Shown: piece after piece, positions 2,287 through 64,000 of the stretch
How the letters are laid out: every line of letters starts with the position of its first letter
Numbering within the stretch: the first letter of the stretch is position 1
Origin: Adineta ricciae
Lineage: Eukaryota > Rotifera > Eurotatoria > Adinetida > Adinetidae
DNA: 64,000 nucleotides
NCBI GenBank assembly: GCA_905250025.1
Contig: CAJNOJ010000028.1
Coordinates: 310,001 to 374,000 of the forward strand
Direction of reading: 5' to 3'
The notes under the pieces: model-generated
What the model was told of the DNA's origin: nothing
The model's database searches: none
The model's input: only the letters and a program-made list of their open reading frames with translations
Program-made: the position numbers and the translations under genes

Positions 2287-4621
2287 TTAGTTTTTCTTCA
2301 TTTGATTACAAGCCATCGCTGCAGCTGAGAGTAGATCATCATCGTCATCATTTATTTCCGATACTTTCTCTATGGACGGATAGAGTTGATCGAGCTGAAC
2401 AAACGTTTGATGATGAAGATCGATATCTTTTTGATTTGATAATTTTTGCAACGAATCAAATGAAAATGGTAAAGAGATTTTATCGTCTTCAGATGATGTC
2501 GAAGAGAAGGATGAATTCGGAGAATTATCAGTAGATTTCTTTCGTATACGCCGAGCTGTATGTGCTAAACGACGAAAAAACAAACAATCAGAAAACTGTC
2601 GTTCGTATTTTTCTTACCTGATTGATTCGATGGCTGAGGTTTCCGATAATCAGGTTTCACATCAATATGAAATTGATCGCCATCATGAATATTATATCTA
2701 AATGATCAAAACATATAAACTCGTTTTGATCAAGGTCAGCAGGTACTCGAAGTAACATTTCAATTCAGTAAACGGATCAGTTTTTATCGATAAGATCTTA
2801 ACCGTATCGAATTACAACGATAGAATCAAATCAAGGTCGTTAGAAAATATATACATTCTAGACGAGTTTTTATCGAAGTGATTTTGTTCTTACGCAAGAA
2901 ATCCTACACTCAACGCAAGTCACCGAAACAATCGTCGACATACGTGTGCAATAATCGTTGAGGATACTTGAGTTCTTCAGGCCCACAAAAGCCCATGTTG
3001 AAAGCAACATCATCTACATAAAACACGCGTAGACGATTCGATGGGATATGAAAAATGTTTTGAAGATATTTCTTGAATTGTTGTACTGTTTGTCGAACAT
3101 CAATTTCTTTGTCATAAGTTACTTGATTATATACAAGATGTACTTGAATTAGATAAGGCGCACGAATGGAAATATCAGCTAATGGTTTGAGATTTCCATG
3201 TTTTTCGATTAAATCGAAATACCTATTGGAAAATGTTCAGTTTAGAGAGAATTGAAGAGTCGATTTACCTTGGTGGTTTATCATCTTGCTGAGAAAAATA
3301 ACGAATGAATCGTCGTTCATTTGTTTCTCTTTCTATTGCTGTGATATCACTTCCATTTAGTTTTATCAAATTTTTCAAATAGCCAAGTAAAAGAAAGAAT
3401 CGTTCATCTTTTTGATACGACTGAAACAATTTCGTTCTTAGACTCTACGTAAAAAAAAAGAAGTACACAGTACCTTGAGTAATGGCGCTGAATAGATGCG
3501 TAAGGCGTGTAAAGACGGAAGTTTTGTCAAGGCAATGATATCATTCCATTCGGTGATTTGAACTTGATCAACACTGAGTGTGTGTAAATTCGGTAGACAG
3601 ATTTGTAGATCATCATCTGAACGAAAACTTTGCAGAGGATTATCACTAGCGATCAACGTTCCAAGCGATGGAAATAAACAACCAAGACGACAGAGAGATT
3701 TCCAATCGGTTAGATTATTATTCGAAATATAAACACGTTTGAGACGAGTATGAACGAAATTGTAACTTGACGATATTTTCGTATAATTATTTGAACAGAT
3801 TTGTAATTCTTCCAAACTAAATAGATGAAAGGAGACAAATATAGATGTGTGTCTATTGTAAGAAGATTAGATAAATATGTCTATTGCGTGTTTAATAAGC
3901 TTTGTTAGTTTCATATTTTGTTCTACAAAAGAGAGAGAGAGAGAGAAAGATCTGATTTCAATTTAGTTCATGGATATTTTTCATTAACGATGACTATTAT
4001 CAAGAAAGATCTGTTCTAAGTACTAACTTCGGCGTTTTCTTCAATAATTCTACGATCATTTCGAGACTGATACGACTTCCATTGAGACATAGGGTATTGA
4101 GATTAGGCCATTGAATTTCATCAGGTAAAATATGCAGATGAGATGGAAATGGATTAAAGCTTAGATTGATTGTTTTAACATGAGGTAGCGAGGAAAGAAG
4201 AAGTGATATCTAAATAAATAAAAGAATAATCAATCGATTTGGTCATAATCAGATGGATAAATAAACAGACTTCGTGCCAATCCGAGAATGCATTTGATGA
4301 AATATCGACAAGTTCGACATGTAAACACGATGTTTCCACAGCATGACGATCACCCACATGTGAAATGCGCTCATCAGTTAGAACAACAGTGGATGCATTG
4401 AGGACGAGGCCTGATTCTGAGAAATAGGAAAAGACCAGCAGTAGACGACGTGCATCTTTTCTTTGCATAGCAATGACTTTACCTGTTTTCTTCGGCGATG
4501 ATCCAACGAAGAAGACAATGTCACATCCATTTTTGAGATCGTCAAATGTTGAATCGAAATCACAATATCGTTCATAGAGAGCATCGGAAAACGAGCGACC
4601 TATTAGTTCGGTAGCAGCCAT
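2287..4621 (-). CDS. TBCEL: Tubulin-specific chaperone cofactor E-like protein (LRR + ubiquitin-like)
   Basis: TBCEL-family proteins bind tubulin and promote its destabilisation. Exons: 4621-4271, 4209-4028, 3816-3474, 3420-3269, 3222-2944, 2697-2618, 2564-2287; total 1665 nt, 554 residues. The N-terminus (IGRSFSDALYERY) matches the family start. Leucine-rich repeats follow (LKRVYISNNNLTDWKSL, FPSLGTLIASDNPL, LPSLHALRIYSAPLL). A ubiquitin-like domain follows in exons 5-6 (YFDLIEKHGNLKPLA, VHLVYNQVTYDKEIDV, then IHDGDQFHIDVK). Splicing at the GTATGT donor at 2943 is needed; reading through ends early, while splicing restores the expected UBL end. The roughly 110-residue tail, rich in Ser and Asp, has no counterpart I recall in vertebrate TBCEL (424 residues). 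Confidence 0.88.
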
Positions 4622-5792
4622 ATCAATCTATAATATACGGCGGACTTCTATCTTATTGTGTTGATGTCTTCGTCCTTGTTAGCCCCCCTTTTTTTCTCTT
4701 CACTTATACAACCTCGTCTATTATCCACTTTCCAATAATAGAGCACGTAAAAACGGCAAGGTCGCCCTTTCTTCTTTTCTCATTCGCTCTTTTGAATACA
4801 TCAATCATTAAACATGCTATGACATATACCATCGTCAGCTGACTTACACTTCATATGAAGAACTATAATCATAAAAATGATAGAAGATTTCACACGATCA
4901 CCGCAACTACTACTACTATAATCGTGGTCGATCAATACTTACGATAGAGGAAAGAATGCTTGAGATAAGAAATGAACTCAGGTCACATATATTGTTAGAA
5001 CTCAAAAAAGAATTCCTGCAATTCACAAACGGAGATAGAGGCGGGGAGAGAAAGAAAAATTGGTCAGTGACTCGATCAGACTAGTCATCGCTTCTGCATG
5101 TATAAGCCCTTCGACGCAGACTTGCCACCCCACCGGTTGTCCGTTCTTTTCTTTCTTTCTTTCTCTCTCTTGCATTCTTCTGTCACTCACTCGTTCGTTC
5201 AACGAGTAAGTTGTGCAATCCCATTTTTTTCTTCTTTATCCTGAACACATACACACATGTACATACAATGTCTACTACTTGCTTTTTAGCTACACACATT
5301 TATCACAAATGGCAAATAACTAATCATTCTATCAAATAATCATAGACACATCGAAAAAAAAAACAGAAAAATTTTTGTTCTATTGAATGTATCTTCATCG
5401 TACGAGAGTACGTCATTGACACGATTGTGTTAGACGTGTCTATCTACAAACATAGACGACTTCAAGTATCTTATATGGCGATGTTTTACTCGCCAAAAAA
5501 AGGAATTTATTTTGAAGTCACGAAACAATATTCATGCATATGTGTATATGTAAGAGGGCAAGCAAGCGAGTGAGAGAGCGAGAACGATAAAAGTAATTGC
5601 AAGTGTACATAAGTCGAAGAGATTTTTTGACAATGAGCATCGAGTAAGAAAGTCGAAAAGAAAAAAAAATAAATAGACGAGTCAAGCTAGACGCAAATGG
5701 AATAAACGATTTTTGATTAATTGACAAAGAAAAGGAAAAGGAATTTATGTGAATCGTTAATCGTTTTGTTCATCTTTTGATTTCTATATCAT
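4622..5792. other. Intergenic, no gene seen
   Basis: Upstream region of the TBCEL-like gene and downstream region of the ITM2-like gene, both minus strand. It contains a C/T microsatellite around 5150-5172 and several A-runs. ORFs here are short and biased in composition. No convincing gene or RNA. Confidence 0.6.
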
Positions 5793-7227
5793 CTAGTGAT
5801 CGATATCAAACATAATTGCGCGTTTGCCAACTGAATACATGAACGCTAAAGCGTTTGGTGAACGGCGACGACGATCTAATTAAAGAAAACGACAAATGTA
5901 AAAGAATTAGACTGTTGAGAGAAATTTACTTTTCATTTCTTCAGCTGTCTTAGGAACAAGACGGTATGTTTTGATATCTTCTGTGCACGTGCTACCCACA
6001 ACTGGACCATAGGCTGCGATGTCACTTGCAGTCAATGCTGGTGTTTGAACTTTCATTGTTTTACGTAGAACTTCGTTGTCAGGTAAGAATGATCCTGACT
6101 AAAAGTACAAAGATCGGATTTCCTTCATATCAATTTCGTTCAACATTCATACCATTATGGCTAAAAGTGTTTCGATAAGATTCGATGGATTTGGTACATG
6201 TTGGCGATCAAGTGGCATAATAAAACATTTATTTACGCCGAAATCCCGAATAGCAGTGATGTTCTAATTAGAATTCAATGATATACGAAAAGGATAAGTA
6301 AAGAAAAAATATATTTACATGATCGAAATCTTCAATAATACGAACGGTGCTTGTGAAACCAATTTGTGGTACTTCAATTGTTTCAATGTTCTTCTTTAAA
6401 TCTACATTTACCTAGAATGTCATTCAAAATATGATGTTTTTCTTTTCAATTAACCGATTGAATTAACTTTCTGACAAAAATGACGACATTGTCGTAGTAA
6501 AGCATCCTTACAATGCTAGGAAGATATGCATAATACTGGAGTTTAAACAAGCTAAGCTTATTATCGACTTCGAAAACCATTGTTGCATAGAAAAAAAACC
6601 TTAGAAACCTTTTGTTGTAAATCAAGACCGATGACACGTTTCTTTTCATGACTTGTCAGAGAATAGAATAAATAGTATTAATAAATCGAGCGAACTTACG
6701 TCCTGTTTGAACTCTTGCTGCATGGCTGGTGATGTTAACATAGGTAAAAGTTGGTTCTTGCCATCGTCGAACGCATTCAAACCGCCATGGTCAATGAAAA
6801 CTCGATTATCCGGTTCGCTGTCCATTGGTTTGACCCGAAAACGACATGTACGGCGCCATGTCTAAAACATTTGCGTTCAAACAAAAACGAACCTCTCCAA
6901 AGGATTAGTTATCATACACGATCTGTACGATTGACGAAATCGAACAGAAGCCATGTTCCAATAACTAGACATCCCAACATGAACAAGGCCGAAAGACATC
7001 CGAACAGAACGGATGCCTGTTTTCGACGAACCTCCTCAACCGGTGGCATTGGAATGTCATCTTGTTCACCTTTGAATGGCTACAACGAAAACCGAATCGA
7101 TATCGACGAACAGCGCCAAGTACAATGAACTTACCAAAACTGTAACAAGAACATCGCCACTATTGGTTTCGACTAATTGTTCTTTATCATCGGGTTTATT
7201 TCCATTGCTCAATGAAACACCGACCAT
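5793..7227 (-). CDS. ITM2: Integral membrane protein 2 (BRI)-like BRICHOS protein with C-terminal peptide
   Basis: Type II membrane BRICHOS protein. Exons: 7227-7135, 7079-6918, 6861-6700, 6641-6609, 6411-6319, 6263-6153, 6098-5930, 5875-5793; 906 nt, 301 residues. One transmembrane segment lies near residues 52-76 (SVLFGCLSALFMLGCLVIG). The BRICHOS region shows FDHNITAIRDFGVNKCFIMP, NLIETLLAIMSGSFLPD and the second cysteine in STCTEDIKTYRLVP, matching the two paired cysteines and spacing of ITM2A/B/C. The last exon begins with NRRRR followed by a 22-residue tail, the position and size of the furin-released Bri23 peptide of human ITM2B. The 33-nt exon 4 is the least certain; another open frame runs through 6446-6649 inside its downstream intron. 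Confidence 0.8.
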
Positions 7228-8343
7228 TGTTTCTAAGTTTTGAACGAAACTGGAGAAAAAGATTATCTAGAAGGTAATTTAGTAACTGAATTTATGATAT
7301 TTTTAACGCGCGATATCAAGCGTCATGTTGAAAGCGGCATTAAAAAGTACTTTTTTCTTCATTTATTAGATGCTGGTTGCGACATCGAAGGCACCTGAAT
7401 AAAGAAAGAAGAAAAAAAGAAAGGAGGAAAAAATCACAATTTTATTTGAACTAAAATAGAATTGCGGAGAAGTGAGAAAAAAAAACAACGGCAGACTTAT
7501 TTTTCCCTGGTTGACCCAAATAATTTTATAATTTAAAGAAATATATTCTTCATTCTTCGCTGAGATGTGAGAAAACTTCAATCTTGCGATAGTCTATATC
7601 TTTGGCATATTTTTTCTCGTAAACATGGATGTTCAGAAGAAGAAGAAGATGCATCTGATTCTAATCTATGACAGTTAGTCGAGGAATGTGAAAGCTATTT
7701 GCCCTAGTAGACGATTATTTACGTTGGAATTGTACGCGTATGAAAGAAGATCTTTCAACTTATTTGTGAAAGATAAGATAAAGATAGTTCATTGAAAAAA
7801 CCAACTCATACTTGATAAGAAAATCGATTAGCAATTTGTTTTCGTAGAGAATAAAAAGAAAATTCTATCAAAAAAAAAAACAATACAACCAATTACTTCC
7901 GTTGTTTTTCTCCTTTCTTACATCACAACACTACTGATTGAGAGAACATCAACGCCGAAAACACAATCATCATTCATATGTCTACTTTTTCCTCTTAGTT
8001 TTTTTTCTGTTTATCATTCGGCTTGTGTAAGCACGTAAATAAGAAAAAACAAAATACTCAGATAATGACGAGATCTACAGAGTCCATAGTTTACCCACAG
8101 TCCAAAACAGAACAAACGATTAATAAACATAAATATAACATGATCTTTTATTGGATTTCGAAATTCAACATTCTGCAGTTATTCTGAACAGAAATGCAAG
8201 TTATGGGATAAGGGAGGTTACAAGTCAAGTACAATGGCTACCGGCAGAGCCAATGCGAAGTACTCATGAAAATCGTGAAACGCAAGCATTGCGTAGACAA
8301 ATAGTAATCTACATCGGAATCCAATAATTGAGTAACATTCAAA
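7228..8343. other. Intergenic between divergent genes, no gene seen
   Basis: Lies between the divergent starts of the ITM2-like (minus) and ISOC-like (plus) genes, so it should hold both promoters. A/T-rich with GAA/TTC-type runs near 7640-7655. The minus-strand ORF at 7366-7581 is Phe/Ser-rich and unconvincing. Confidence 0.55.
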
Positions 8344-9119
8344 ATGGCTCAACGTATAACACGACTCGCTCGGAAAACATCGTTATTATTATTGTGCGAT
8401 ATGCAAGAAAAGTTTCGGCCAACTATTAAATATTTTCCTCAAATTATCGAAACTTCGAGTAAACTACTTCAAGCCTGTAAGGTACTTGATGTTCCTTATA
8501 TCGTCACCGAACAATATCCTAAAGGTACGAATGATGAATATTAATGAATATTAATAATTATTGATTTGAAATAGGCCTCGGCCGAACTGTGAAAGAACTT
8601 GATATTGGCGATGAGAAACCATTTGAAAAAACTCTGTTTTCCATGTGTACTCCCGATGTTGATTCGTATATGAAACAAAAGAACAAAGGTATTAAGTTCA
8701 TTTGCAAATAACTTAACAAATTATGATTAATCTCGAAATTTGGTGTCTTTATAGACTTTGATACAGCTATAATATGTGGTATCGAAGCTCATGCTTGTGT
8801 TCTTCAAACGGCCATCGATCTTTTATCTAAAAATAAGCGTGTGTATATCGTCGCTGATGCTGTTTCATCGCGTTCTCTAACGGACAGGTATAGTATGGTG
8901 AAATCTTACGTAATTACATTGATGTTGCCGTTTAGAATGTATGCTTTTGATCATATGCGTCAAGCCGGTGCTTTCATTACAACATTTGAATCGATCGTTT
9001 TGCAATTAACACAGGACGCCGGTCATCCGAAATTTAAACAAATTCAGCCATTGATTAAAACATCAGCAGCCGATACTGGACTCCTTGCACTGAAAAATAT
9101 TCCCACTCCATCTTCATAG
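8344..9119 (+). CDS. ISOC2: Isochorismatase domain-containing protein (ISOC1/2-like)
   Basis: Cysteine hydrolase-fold protein of the animal ISOC1/ISOC2 group; the substrate is not firmly known. Exons: 8344-8524, 8575-8688, 8755-8887, 8936-9119; 612 nt, 203 residues, a full-length single domain. Fold signatures in order: LLLCDMQEKFRP with the catalytic-type Asp, VTEQYPKGLGRTVKEL, and IICGIEAHACVLQTAIDLL with the nucleophile-type Cys. ADAVSSRSLTDRMYAFDHMRQAGAF follows. All four introns-exon joins keep the frame, and the GMGLGRT-type loop is rebuilt by splicing (PK|GLGR). First gene of a tight plus-strand cluster: the TYW1 ATG begins 89 bp after its stop with no AATAAA between. Confidence 0.9.
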
Positions 9120-15805: not shown

Positions 15806-18294
15806 ATGTCGTCGGAACATGGACTTCATGTCATGCTTAGTTATCATTGGGATAATAAAGAACTGGTTTCAAAGGTTTATAAAGTACTGAAATCACGCGG
15901 TATACCTGTGTGGATGGATATTCATGGAGGAATCAGTTTTAATCTATTTCAAAGGTATAATGTTATGATTTCGATTTGATGAAACTGATTTTTCTCGTTT
16001 CTTAGTATGGCAGATGGAGTCGAAAATGCCGCTGTTGTTTGCTGTTTTATGACACANNNNNNNNNNNNNNNNNNNNNNNNNNNNTGGTTTCAAAGGTTTA
16101 TAAAGTACTGAAATCACGCGGTATACCTGTGTGGATGGATATTCATGGAGGAATCAGTTTTAATCTATTTCAAAGGTATAATGTTATGATTTCGATTTGA
16201 TGAAACTGATTTTTCTCGTTTCTTAGTATGGCAGATGGAGTTGAAAATGCCGCTGTTGTTTGCTGTTTTATGACACAACAGTATCAAAATTCACGTAATT
16301 GTGAAAAAGAATTACTATATGCGGAAAGAAGACGAGTTTCTATCATTCCATGTCGATTAACTCGTGGCTGGGAACCGTCCACTTGGCTTGGACTTGTTAC
16401 TGCTGGACTAGTATGGATCGATTTTCGTGAAACAACGGACGCTAATGTGGATGTTAAAATTGATAAATTAATTGATCAGATTCGAATCGTTGCTGGAAAA
16501 CAAATGAGTTGTTTCTTGCCAGGTTTGGTCCACTTTTTCATCATTGAAAACTTCTCCACCGTTGAATTTTTCATTTAGAGACACCCAGTATCGCACAATT
16601 ACCTGCGATAAATACCACCACTTCTTCAAATGCACTCTATCCTATTCTTCCAGTATCCATTGATGTGCCAAAACCAAATACATCTGATGTACATAATCTT
16701 GTGCGTGCTTCATCGATTGATTCGACAAAACGATCGAATACTTTAACGTCTCGTCAGCATCAGAGTGTCGATCACACGACTTTGGTACAACCGACACCAC
16801 CACCTGTGCCTCCACGACCGGACAAATCTTTACTTCGTGATCGATTATTACAAATGGATGAAAAGAAGAATTTGAATGAAACTGAGTGTTGTTCTGATGA
16901 GAAAAAAGAGAACAGGTATAGTTATTTACGTTGCTCTCGAAAACGACTCTTTTCAAATTGATTTCGGATTGTCTTCAGTGTACCGTTATCGGGTGGAAAG
17001 CCAGATATTTGTGAAGTGTCCATACAAAATCAAGCAAATGCACGTTCAATACCTGTAAGTAACACGGAACATATGAACGAATGGTTTTACAGATTGTTGA
17101 TACATTTGTTTTTGAAATAGGACGTATTGGATGTGTCTCCTACAATCGTTGCTGATGAGAAAAGACGTACGGGCACCGTCATTGATTATTCAAAATTTCG
17201 TCGTCCGCCACGGATTATTGGTGATGATAACGATGAGATCTCTCTTTCCTGTCCATCAGGAGTTGCTGTATCAAAGACGGGCCTTATCTATGTAGCTGAC
17301 CAGCAGAATCAATGTGTGAAAGTCATTCCATTATTAGGAAGCAGAAAGCAAATTTTATCACGTCCATTTAATCGACCGAAAGGTGTTCATGTTGACGAAC
17401 TTGGTCGTGTTCTTGTTACCGAGCATAATCGTTTGCTCATACTCGATAATGAGCTCAATCTACTCAAAGCCATTGGAGATCACGGTTCGAAGCCGGGTGA
17501 ATTCAATGTACCGTGGGGTAACACAGAAAGAAACGAATATCTCCGATACACATTTTATTTCTTTCGTAGGTGTGACTACAGATTCGTCATCGAATATTTA
17601 CNAGGTGTTCATGTTGACGAACTTGGTCGTGTTCTTGTTACCGAGCATAATCGTTTGCTCATACTCGATAATGAGCTCAATCTACTCAAAGCCATTGGAG
17701 ATCACGGTTCGAAGCCGGGTGAATTCAATGTACCGTGGGGTAACACAGAAAGAAACGAATATCTCCGATACACATTTTATTTCTTTCGTAGGTGTGACTA
17801 CAGATTCGTCATCGAATATTTACATATGCGACCAAATGAATAATCGCATACAAAAATTAGACACGGATGGACGATTCCTACTTGAATGGGGTTATGAAGG
17901 TGAACATGCTGGTCAATTTTACTATCCACATTTTATCTCTGTATCAGGCAATCGTGTAGCTGTTTCCGATCAATTGAATCACCGTATTCAAGTTTTCGAT
18001 TGTTTCGGAAATTATCATTATAAATTAGGCGAATCTGGCAGTGAGCCAGGTCAATTTAATTGCCCATTTGGAGTTTGTATTGACGCCAATGGTCATATCA
18101 TTGTTGCTGATCATGACAATAATCGTGTACAATTCTTCGATGCTTATGGTGATGTTCAACTTGTGTTAGATCGAGAATCGAATCCTCTGTTCGATTTTCA
18201 AGGTGTTCATGGTTTAGCATTGACGCATGACGGAGGACTATTGATTACAGATTATAAACGCAATGGAAAACACCGTCTATTTATTTTTGCATAG
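15806..18294 (+). CDS. TIR domain-NHL repeat fusion protein (interrupted by two assembly joins)
   Basis: Exons after removing duplicated join sequence: 15806-15954, 16227-16522, 16579-16915, 16979-17054, 17121-17517, 17792-18294; 1758 nt, 585 residues. Residues about 7-145 form a TIR domain (HVMLSYHWDNKELVSKVY, VWMDIHGGIS, MADGVENAAVVCCFMTQQYQ, NCEKELLYAERRRVSIIP). The second Glu of CEKEL aligns with the catalytic Glu of SARM1-type NAD hydrolases. Residues about 150-300 are a Ser/Thr/Pro linker with PTPPPVPPRPDKS, a PxxP site. The C-terminus has about six NHL blades (GVTTDSSSNIYICDQMNNRI, GVCIDANGHIIVADHDNNRV), a likely six-bladed propeller. The start is the first ATG, 12 bp after a T-rich acceptor. 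In the raw sequence the TIR and NHL parts are each split by an N with flanking copies. Partner and substrate are unknown. Confidence 0.85.
15864..16277 (+). repeat. 193-bp direct copies flanking a 28-N gap (assembly join)
   Basis: 15864-16056 and 16085-16277 are the same 193 bp, with one difference (C/T near 16022/16243), and the gap 16057-16084 lies between. The copy includes the end of TIR exon 1, its intron and the start of exon 2. The perfect abutment to the gap says unmerged contig ends, probably two alleles. Confidence 0.9.
17381..17823 (+). repeat. 221-bp direct copies flanking a single N (assembly join)
   Basis: 17381-17601 and 17603-17823 appear identical and are separated by one N at 17602. 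The unit covers most of one NHL exon, its intron and 32 bp of the next exon. Using one copy gives a continuous NHL propeller; using both breaks it. Confidence 0.9.
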
Positions 18295-19054: not shown

Positions 19055-21272
19055 ATGCCGTTCTGGAAGAAAGATCCTGTGAAAAAAGATATTTATACCA
19101 ATGTTGCCGAAGGTTTACGGCAAGTTTACAAGACGAAACTATTACCACTAGAAGAAGCTTATAGATTTCATGAGTTTCATTCTCCACAACTCGATGACAG
19201 CGATTTCTCAGCAAAACCAATGGTACTTCTTGTTGGACAATACTCCGTCGGAAAAACAACGTTCATACGTTATTTATTAAATGTAAATACATGGTTTTTC
19301 TTAATGTTTATCTAATGGTTTTTCTATTGTAGGAAGATTTTCCGGGTATTCGTATTGGTCCGGGTAAGGAGTGTCTTGATTTCTAATTATCTGTGTTTTG
19401 CTAATTGAATCTATTTTCTTAGAACCAACAACAGATTCCTTCATTGCCATCATGCATAATGAACATCCAGGTACTATTCCTGGCAATGCTTTAGTTGTCG
19501 ATCCGACGAAACCGTTCCGACCATTGTCGAAATTTGGTAATGCGTTCTTGAATCGTTTCGTGTGTTCACAGTTACGCAATGAAGTACTGGAAACTGTGAC
19601 ATTTATTGACACACCTGGTATCTTAGCGGGTGAAAAACAACGAGTTGATCGTGGTTATGAGTTCACACATGTTCTGGAGTGGTTTGCTGATCGTTGTGAT
19701 CGCATCTTACTTCTCTTCGACGTCTCGTCGTTGGATATTTCCGATGAGTTGAAACGTGCGATCGAAGTTTTACGACGCAACGACGACAAAATACGTATTG
19801 TGCTGAATAAAGCTGATTCCGTTGATCATCAAGCTTTGATGCGAGTTTACGGTGCATTGATGTGGTCTTTAGGAAAAGTACTTGGAACACCTGAAGTTTG
19901 CCGAGTTTATGTTGGATCATTCTGGTCAAAGCCATTGAATTTCGATTCAAATCGACGTTTATTCGAGTTGGAGACCAAAGATCTATTCGATGATTTAGGT
20001 AAATCTCAACTATGTTAAAGTTAATATTGATACTTTCATACAGAACATAATTGAGAGAGAAAATATGTAAGCGATTTATGAGACTGAGATAAGATACATA
20101 ATTTAAACTTCCTCCGCAAATATTTATTCTTTTATTCTAAATTTAGAATCACTACCTAAGACAGCAACACTGCGCAAGTTGAATGATCTGATCAAGCGTG
20201 CTCGTTTGGCTAAAGTAGGTTCATTATCATTTCAACACATCGATTATCTATTGATCTAATATAGGTACATGCATTGATTGTCAGCGAGTTGAAAGATAGC
20301 ATGCCGAGTGTATTTGGTAAAGATTCAAAACGCAAAGAATTGATCAGTGTAAGTCTATTGATCTTTCAAATACGAAGGAACTGTGTTGTATTTGATTAGA
20401 AATTGCACCTTGTCTACGAAAAAATTCAACGTGAACACAATATTCCATTAGGTGATTTTCCAAAACTCGAACGCATGCAAGAGTTGTTACGAAATATGGT
20501 AAAATACGTGTGGATTCTCTCCGATATAGATGGCATAACACTTTTTTCTCTTCATTTTTAGGATTTCACAAAATTCAAACCATTGGACAAGAAATTACTT
20601 GATCGCGTGGATAAAATGCTTGCTGAAGATGTGCCAAAATTAATGAGTATGATTCCACAAGAAGAACACAGTTATTTACAATTACAGAGTCAAACAACAC
20701 ATCACACAACTTCCACGTCAAACACGATCTTTACGGACCAGCAAGCTACACCATTTGAACTCGGTGGTGTCGAAGGTATCAATGCAGGTGTTGGCGAAAG
20801 CGATTGGATTGTGACACGATCAAGACATGAATACGATCAAGTATTTGCCTCGCTATCACCGCAGAACGGCAAAATTAGTGGTGCAGCAGCTAAACAGGAA
20901 ATGATTAAATCGAAACTGGTAAGTTTGAAAAAGAAATCTTTCTAAACGAATAATCCGATTGTAAATGTTTTCCAGCCGAACAACGTTCTCGGTCGTGTGT
21001 GGAAATTGAGTGATATTGATAAAGATGGCATGCTCGACATTGATGAATGGGCACTTTCCCAACATTTAAGTGAGTTTTGATGACGAGTCTAAACTGTTTT
21101 CAACTATTTTCTTTTAGTTAAAATCAAACTTGATGGTCACGAACTTCCCAATGCATTACCCGATCATCTCGTTCCTCCTAGTAAACGTCATTTAACTGCT
21201 AATGAAAACGCTAGTCTTTACCCTACAATCGTTGCTAGTAGTGGCGAACAACATTCAAATGGTGATAGTTAA
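19055..21272 (+). CDS. EHD1: EH domain-containing protein (EHD1-4 family membrane-remodelling ATPase)
   Basis: Dynamin-like ATPase that shapes membranes in endocytic recycling. Exons: 19055-19282, 19333-19363, 19423-19998, 20147-20214, 20265-20348, 20400-20498, 20562-20918, 20976-21069, 21118-21272; 1692 nt, 563 residues (vertebrate EHDs are about 535-550). P-loop [15 protein letters not shown], then [17 protein letters not shown], switch [12 protein letters not shown], and NKAD. Helical stretch [21 protein letters not shown]. The C-terminal EH domain has the calcium-binding loop [15 protein letters not shown] and [12 protein letters not shown] Ser/Thr/Gln-rich insert precedes the EH domain. 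Animals usually have one to four EHD genes; the symbol is a family label only. Confidence 0.95.
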
Positions 21273-22616
21273 TTTTGTAGTTTCTTCGATTAGTTGATAT
21301 CCTGCATGAATACTGCTTGGAAGATCGTTTTTTGAAACAACAGTGAAACTGCTTTTACGAGGAAAACAATCTAATTATTATACATATATATTTATCTCAT
21401 TTTATCTTGCCTTTGCTCTCTCATTTTTTCATGCAATCGTGTGCGCGTGTAAACTTTGATTTTCTTTTTTTTTAAATACAAACTCCGAATTTTTCTCTCC
21501 TCTACTGTATCTATTCACGCTTGCCTAGATGATTCTTTTGTGCAGTAGCCGACAAACGAACACGGAAATATCAATGAATAAACTGAACACATGTTCCGGA
21601 AAAACCTAAACGGAAAACGTGATTGATTCAATTTCTACTCGTTCCTCTTTTTATTCAATGATGATAATTGAGATTTGAAACTCTTATCATATTTCACCTA
21701 TTTGTTCAACAAACTGATAAAATATCATGTTTAAAGCGACTTCCGTAGAAGTTTTCATTGAGTGTGGACAAGATAACTTCGTTGACGCATGCCATTCTGT
21801 GTAAATCAAAGGAAAAAACAAGATCGATAAGTATTATCAATCATTTGATATTTGACTTCAAATATAACAGACATGAAAAGGTAAATATATTCACACGTTG
21901 CCGAATGTCTATGATCGCTAACTAATAAAAATAGACAGATTTGCTTATTTATCCAAACATTTGTGACAGCAGGCAGGCGCGTAGTCTTCATTTGATCTCG
22001 CTTCATCACTTTTCATTTTTTTCTCTTTTTAAAACAAAGAAGACATTTCCTTCTCTCTCTCTCTGTCCCTCTCTTCTCTCTCATTTTCTTTTTTGACTTC
22101 ATTTACTGAAAGAAAAAAAAAAGAAGTTTTCCTCTTCTGCTTCTTCTTTTTCTCATTTTCTTGTAGAGTAGACTAATCATCCGTTGCTCTCTTGTTTTAA
22201 CTGTTGAGTATATGTCTCTGTTGTGTAGATACCTTCTCACTTTTTTAAAGACATAAAAAGGAAAAGAGAGAATAAGAGAAAAGAAGAATGACANCAAGCG
22301 AATAATTTGCAACTTAGCAACGTTGTTGAAGCAATACTTGAAAAAGCTAATGGATTTTTTTCATTATCTCAAAAAATGCTCAGGAATGCACTGATATGTG
22401 TATATACAATCTTTCGAATTCATTCATATGAACTTAATGATGACTTATTTTCTTTCTCTCTCACTCAATTCTATTTCGTTTCACTTTTTCTTTCTAATGA
22501 GACAGAAAAATATTTGATCTGTTCTGTCAGCTTCGAATTGTTGTTGCCATAGAAGACGACAGTGTATTTTCTTCTGACGAGCATTTGTTTTTGTTGCTTA
22601 CATGATAGAACACTGA
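21273..22616. other. Intergenic with one undetermined base
   Basis: No gene seen. A candidate AATAAA for the EHD transcript lies at 21577-21582. C/T-rich low-complexity sequence runs through about 22045-22150. A single N lies at 22294; unlike the other N sites I see no flanking duplicate here. Confidence 0.55.

Positions 22617-62072: not shown

Positions 62073-64000
<1,928 letters not shown>

Follow-up and report, generated by a model that had tools for sequence, protein, structure and literature searches.

In the literature consulted, the dominant animal case of a TIR NADase is SARM1, or TIR-1, in which an ARM and tandem SAM domains stand before the TIR domain. Toll-like receptors and MyD88 combine TIR with LRRs or a death domain, and plant TIR-NLRs and the SPARTA TIR-APAZ proteins rely on NB-ARC/LRR or Argonaute-type sensors. 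Cat1, which acts in prokaryotic type III CRISPR defence, has a CARF sensor, and each of its active sites is built from a stacked pair of TIRs; the residues of the site, E74 among them, are named in PMC12162218. Passages of PMC7282519 describe TIR NADases as an effector common to bacterial, plant and animal defence, and report that the NADase function of prokaryotic TIRs is enhanced by crowding on beads.

The gene considered here comes from the bdelloid rotifer Adineta ricciae and joins a TIR domain to an NHL propeller. It lies in a window of 64,000 nucleotides (positions 310001-374000 of contig C28), and the genome assembly that was searched comprises 130.5 Mb in 1033 contigs. Its product, TIR-NHL, shares S7, D33, S68 and E74 with Cat1 (Cat1 numbering), and the position of Cat1 Y122 is aromatic in both, but the second module is NHL rather than CARF. 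Unlike SARM1, it has no ARM or SAM family by Pfam, its TIR is N-terminal and its other folded part is the propeller; neither the LRR nor the death domain of the Toll-like receptors and MyD88 is present (Pfam, E up to 1). In contrast to the TRIM-NHL proteins (Thin/TRIM32, TRIM71/LIN-41, TRIM2/3 and the RING genes of this genome that have NHL exons, L031-L033), its N terminus is TIR_2, with no RING or B-box at the same threshold, and a propeller stands in place of the sensors of plant TIR-NLRs and SPARTA. By these domain tests TIR-NHL is not a Toll-like receptor, a SARM1 or a TRIM protein. No open-access paper describing the fusion was found, and a term search of two bdelloid/TIR papers, PMC7145615 and PMC8609888, returned no instance of 'NHL'. 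It is a new architecture built from known modules, of the TIR sensor-effector kind.

Gene structure and assembly

The gene has six exons, an open frame of 585 amino acids and introns that are all GT..AG (Table 1). Residues 1-146 form the TIR part and residues 147-303 a disordered, proline-bearing linker, with a six-bladed NHL propeller as the remainder. Pfam assigns TIR_2 (PF13676) to residues 9-122 with an E value of 2.6e-20 and NHL (PF01436) to six stretches with an E value of 3.1e-35, bearing out the six blades proposed in an earlier note on this DNA; the other families above cut-off, DUF5128 and TEN_NHL, are propeller families only. Directly downstream, at 19055-20945 of the window on the forward strand, is a gene for an EHD-type membrane GTPase (PF16880, E 8.1e-18; PF00350, 1e-7).

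Table 1. The TIR-NHL gene (15806-18294) and the duplicated segments at its two joins, in window coordinates
Feature	Position	Strand	Content
Exon 1	15806-15954	+	Met1 to split codon 50; start of TIR, including S12, W36, D38
Exon 2	16227-16522	+	Remaining TIR, including S72, C75 and catalytic-type E78
Exon 3	16579-16915	+	Linker
Exon 4	16979-17054	+	Linker; exons 3 and 4 together about residues 149-286, including PPPVPPRP (222-229)
Exon 5	17121-17517	+	End of linker and NHL propeller (with exon 6)
Exon 6	17792-18294	+	Rest of NHL propeller; propeller = residues 304-585
193-bp duplicate, copy 1	15864-16056	+	Before the 28-N join
193-bp duplicate, copy 2	16085-16277	+	Its exon 1 portion is counted as intronic in the gene model
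221-bp duplicate, copy 1	17381-17601	+	Before the single-N join
221-bp duplicate, copy 2	17603-17823	+	After the single-N join

Two assembly joins fall within the gene. The N run at 16057-16084 is flanked by the 193-bp duplicates, which differ by one mismatch, and the single N at 17602 by the identical 221-bp duplicates; because the Ns stand between duplicated flanks, both joins are read as unmerged contig overlaps with no missing sequence. Two of the five model introns (272 and 274 bp) hold a duplicate and its join, and shrink to 51 and 52 bp when taken within a single copy, while splicing from the first-copy donor to the second-copy acceptor removes the duplicate at each join. Joins with duplicated flanks inside a gene might suggest that two adjacent genes had been fused by N gaps in assembly or annotation. 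That reading is now practically refuted and we give it a negligible probability, since one join lies within the TIR part and the other within the NHL part, the stretch from 16085 to 17601 is free of N, so that no N stands between the two domains, and the same fusion occurs in six database proteins of related bdelloids. The earlier note had named a location of the two halves at different loci, after resolution of the joins, as fatal to its proposal; that test therefore fails to refute it. Elsewhere in the window, a 176-bp duplicate (63102-63277 and 63324-63498, 96%) flanks a single N and is probably an unmerged scaffold join; the single N at 22294 had no flanking duplicate in the same duplicate search of the window.

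Conservation of the fusion in bdelloids

A search of about 5.8 billion database proteins, considered here for the best 120 of 921 matches (from 7995 scored candidates), found six bdelloid proteins with TIR_2 and NHL in the same order, both domains being confirmed by Pfam in all six. They come from Adineta steineri (83% identity) and four Rotaria taxa, namely R. sordida (78%), Rotaria sp. Silwood1 (77% and 74%), R. magnacalcarata (72%) and R. socialis (66%, a partial record with 83% covered), with alignment to the entire query in five of the six. All were deposited under the names 'unnamed protein product' or 'TIR domain-containing protein'. Averaged over all pairs of the window protein and five relatives, the partial P0006 being excluded, identity is 87.8% for the TIR, 57.5% for the linker and 88.1% for the NHL part. 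Since six related proteins share both domains in the same order, a chance fusion is excluded; the single gene of TIR, proline linker and NHL that had been proposed is confirmed by these comparisons as real and conserved in bdelloids. The same fusion in both genera, with both ends conserved, indicates that the TIR and NHL ends have been joined since before the split of Adineta and Rotaria.

Among the 120 best matches, the 114 that follow the six TIR-NHL proteins have no TIR_2 in the Pfam column. The TIR alone (P0001 residues 1-145) matched only those six and one triple-TIR eukaryote record, P0121; this query reaches close relatives only, having missed bdelloid TIR proteins of about 45-52% identity that fall within the length range (e.g. 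P0183 and P0184). None of the 120 listed matches, out of 125, in a TIR profile search carries an NHL family, but the six known TIR-NHL proteins are also unlisted there, and the result is not a valid negative. The matches listed include TIR proteins of Adineta vaga and of Didymodactylos but no TIR-NHL from either, which may reflect loss, mis-annotation or the limits of the search.

Within the A. ricciae genome, a whole-protein search (75 of 1007 candidates scored) listed no second TIR-NHL locus, the TIR and NHL matches elsewhere being separate; the count of one locus rests mainly on that search, because the NHL census of the genome scored only 150 of 2777 candidates. One candidate on contig C162, with TIR and NHL matches about 2.3 kb apart, was rejected, as its TIR frame stops and the downstream NHL frames, judged by eye, have a signal-like start. 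The stretch concerned (L039, C162:59800-69700) holds a tandem duplicate of a gene that, read by eye, has a helical N terminus, then a TIR and perhaps a SAM-like C terminus; downstream of each copy stands a distinct NHL gene whose start looks signal-like.

The TIR domain and its putative active site

The PF13676 match, together with a succession of strands and helices like that of TIR domains in the model of the relative P0001, places the N-terminal domain in the TIR superfamily. The earlier note had proposed that the second Glu of the motif NCEKELLYAE, E78, corresponds to the catalytic Glu of NAD-cleaving TIRs, and the family supports this assignment. Of the 80 TIR copies in BLAST alignments to database proteins that cover residues 15-90, 64 keep W36, D38 and E78 together and the other 16 lack all three; these 16 are extra copies in proteins that also have an intact one. 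The first Glu of the motif, E76, is shared by just 8 of the 80, so the second is the constrained one. Eleven aligned TIRs of the subfamily agree without exception at S12, Y13, W36, D38, S72, C75 and E78.

When a profile of the TIR family was compared with the PDB, Cat1 was the best match (E 3e-10; next PDB match 0.061), whereas the single window TIR as query gave nothing significant (best E 0.05). Cat1 S7, D33, S68 and E74 correspond to the invariant S12, D38, S72 and E78, and four of nine active-site positions are therefore identical, with E78 at the position of the catalytic-type Glu of TIR NADases. Cat1 Y122 aligns with W113, aromatic for aromatic, at a position where 8 of 11 family members have Tyr or Trp, while Cat1 H8, N9, N10 and K121 are not kept (Y13, H14, W15 and V112 here). 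Judged from these alignments, the catalytic-type TIR core appears well preserved as far as the Glu and the three other identical residues go.

The fold search with the full-length model barely probed the TIR, hence the use of a separate model from the same family, that of the Didymodactylos TIR protein P0172 (53% identity with the window TIR). TIR structures head its list of fold matches, with SPARTA (17.0), Hydra TRR-2 (16.4), SARM1 (16.0), RUN1 (15.7) and MyD88 (15.1) at the top, and all the matches listed are TIR structures save two non-TIR rows in Foldseek. Because rows within 1 of each other count as ties, fold alone cannot separate an enzyme from a scaffold. The TIR might be a non-enzymatic adaptor of the MyD88 kind, which recruits other TIR proteins while the propeller only localises it. 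We consider this somewhat unlikely, given that the four kept Cat1 positions, including the Glu, are invariant in the family, and that W36, D38 and E78 are kept or lost en bloc, a pattern that a pure scaffold would not need.

The linker and its proline motif

AlphaFold gives residues 145-297 of P0001 a pLDDT below 50, from which disorder of the linker is probable. The linker is drifting; in seven sequences 31 of its 157 positions are invariant, and the longest invariant run is PPPVPPRP. When 31 invariant positions were placed at random, 16 of 100000 trials gave a run of that length. Class II SH3 ligands follow the rule PxxPx(R/K), and P223xxP226xR228, which is kept in all seven sequences, fits the core PxxPxR and is a candidate ligand. 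The first seven letters of the run are identical to those of the SOS1 peptide PPPVPPRRR, for which passages of PMC3192808 report measured binding to the Grb2 N-terminal SH3 domain (N-SH3).

The NHL propeller and its possible ligand

Both Pfam and the P0001 model place a six-bladed NHL propeller at the C terminus, as in TRIM-NHL proteins. Drosophila Thin is the best single solved match, for the whole protein and by structure, while for the NHL part alone TRIM71 scores higher (256.5 bits against 198 for Thin) by way of overlapping out-of-register repeats. In a 12-row tree, which carries long-branch warnings, TIR-NHL is joined first by L031 and L032 (85/87) and next by L033 (95/97), with Thin on the other side. 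These results place the parent subfamily of the propeller variously with the RING/NHL genes, Thin or TRIM71. Pfam confirms a RING in L031 (9.9e-10) and L032 (5.8e-11); a B-box had been seen by eye in both, and Pfam did not confirm it on pieces of L031.

According to passages of PMC5908797, several TRIM-NHL propellers bind RNA, their surface evolves fast, and the basic RNA pocket of DrLIN41 consists of R564, R581, R611, K628, D629 and Y658. TIR-NHL could on this precedent be an RNA-guided effector, in which the propeller binds RNA as LIN41 or Brat does and delivers the TIR there, and the earlier note had named RNA, beside protein, among the ligands of NHL propellers. The pocket of LIN41 is, however, absent: each of five TIR-NHL propellers keeps one of the six contacts, the other five being changed or, at two positions, falling in an alignment gap, whereas the genome's own TRIM71-like gene (L030) keeps all six. 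The comparison covers contacts of the LIN41 type; it speaks against RNA as a ligand in the LIN41 manner, and leaves the RNA-guided reading improbable.

The bdelloid TIR_2 family and other fusions

By sequence similarity the TIR of TIR-NHL belongs to a TIR_2 family expanded in bdelloids. A genome-wide scan gave 152 TIR_2 matches, counted per exon and not per gene, and close relatives of the TIR were examined at nine other loci of the genome (L021-L029). No NHL was found by tblastn in these nine 9.9-kb stretches. The first intron, which in TIR-NHL precedes exon 2, is at the identical place in all seven spliced TIR paralogues. TIR-NACHT-HEAT, TIR with ADP-ribosyltransferase (ART), TIR with ricin-type lectin and triple-TIR proteins of bdelloids share the TIR subfamily of TIR-NHL, with the S/W/D/S/E residues in intact copies, but their partner domains differ from its own. 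The list of usual animal TIR partners given in the earlier note (LRR, Ig and others) was thus an understatement, the TIR_2 genes of this genome having several further ones.

These relatives are of several kinds. L024 (C398:42500-52400, about 4300 to 8734 of that stretch, forward strand) encodes TIR_2-NACHT-HEAT (TIR 6.8e-21, NACHT 4.4e-19, HEAT_2 6.2e-53), and L025 (C280:121600-131500, reverse strand) TIR-NACHT (NACHT 8.8e-11); both are NLR-like animal genes whose N-terminal TIR belongs to the subfamily, and the Rotaria records P0182 and P0183 also have TIR and NACHT. In L021 (C390:63000-72900, reverse strand) a ricin-type lectin-like domain (PF14200) comes after TIR_2, as it does in P0173 of A. 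steineri. In L029 (C251:91000-100900, at 4573-5988, forward strand) a TIR exon pair is followed just downstream by an ART exon (PF01129), a candidate single gene, and the Rotaria and A. steineri proteins P0176, P0180, P0186 and P0200 combine TIR with the same ADP-ribosyltransferase family, which precedes the TIR in P0176 and P0200; such proteins have two types of NAD-using domain in one chain. L026 (C123) and L027 (C167) are multi-TIR loci in which, by eye, W, D and E are all kept in one TIR and the Glu is gone from another, and 16 database proteins have an intact copy beside one without W, D and E. L022 (contig C172) and L023 have a TIR with an unknown C terminus, and L028 a TIR with a His-rich tail. 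The metagenomic record P0208 pairs a TIR_2 of the subfamily with NB-ARC (precomputed PF00931), a plant-like combination.

Another reading of TIR-NHL is that of a developmental or cytoskeletal NHL protein, in which the TIR is a local metabolic switch acting on NAD and there is no immune role. Thin, the nearest solved propeller, is a muscle protein, and TIR-NHL is a strongly conserved gene for which one locus was found, unlike fast-evolving immune receptors. While nothing tells directly against this reading, the NACHT-HEAT, lectin-like and ART partners found in the family would seem more defence-like, and we regard it as unlikely.

Proposed mode of action

Our preferred reading, held tentatively and at a little less than an even chance, is that TIR-NHL is a sensor-effector conserved in bdelloids, in which a protein-recognition propeller clusters or aims a TIR NADase. 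The protein is probably intracellular. The propeller, akin to those of the RING/NHL and TRIM-NHL proteins, would bind a protein partner or surface, and the conserved class II SH3 ligand of the linker may tie the protein to an SH3 adaptor. Once several molecules were crowded on a target, the N-terminal TIRs would associate and might, like those of Cat1 and SARM1, cut NAD+ or a related nucleotide by means of E78, the site also containing S12, D38 and S72. We infer each of these steps, from propeller to SH3 tether, TIR pairing and NAD+ cleavage. Clustering on the target is a plausible switch by analogy, because Cat1 needs stacked TIRs and crowding on beads boosts the activity of prokaryotic TIR NADases.

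A broader suggestion, possible if doubtful, is that bdelloids have built a modular set of TIR NADases that serve as receptors inside the cell and whose recognition parts can be exchanged (NHL propeller, NACHT-HEAT, ricin-type lectin and ART), and that TIR-NHL arose when the RING, or ubiquitin-ligase, part of a TRIM-NHL-type gene was swapped for a TIR. If so, a protein that tagged a target with ubiquitin would have become an NAD-depleting alarm for that target.

Passages of PMC8609888 report one Toll-like receptor for the monogonont Epiphanes senta and none for A. vaga or Rotaria tardigrada, and state that how animals without these receptors mount an immune response is unknown. A conserved animal fusion of TIR and propeller would offer a new, compact and testable sensor-effector pair, and TIR-NHL, if it has the immune or stress role envisaged here, would be an entry point to bdelloid immunity or stress signalling.
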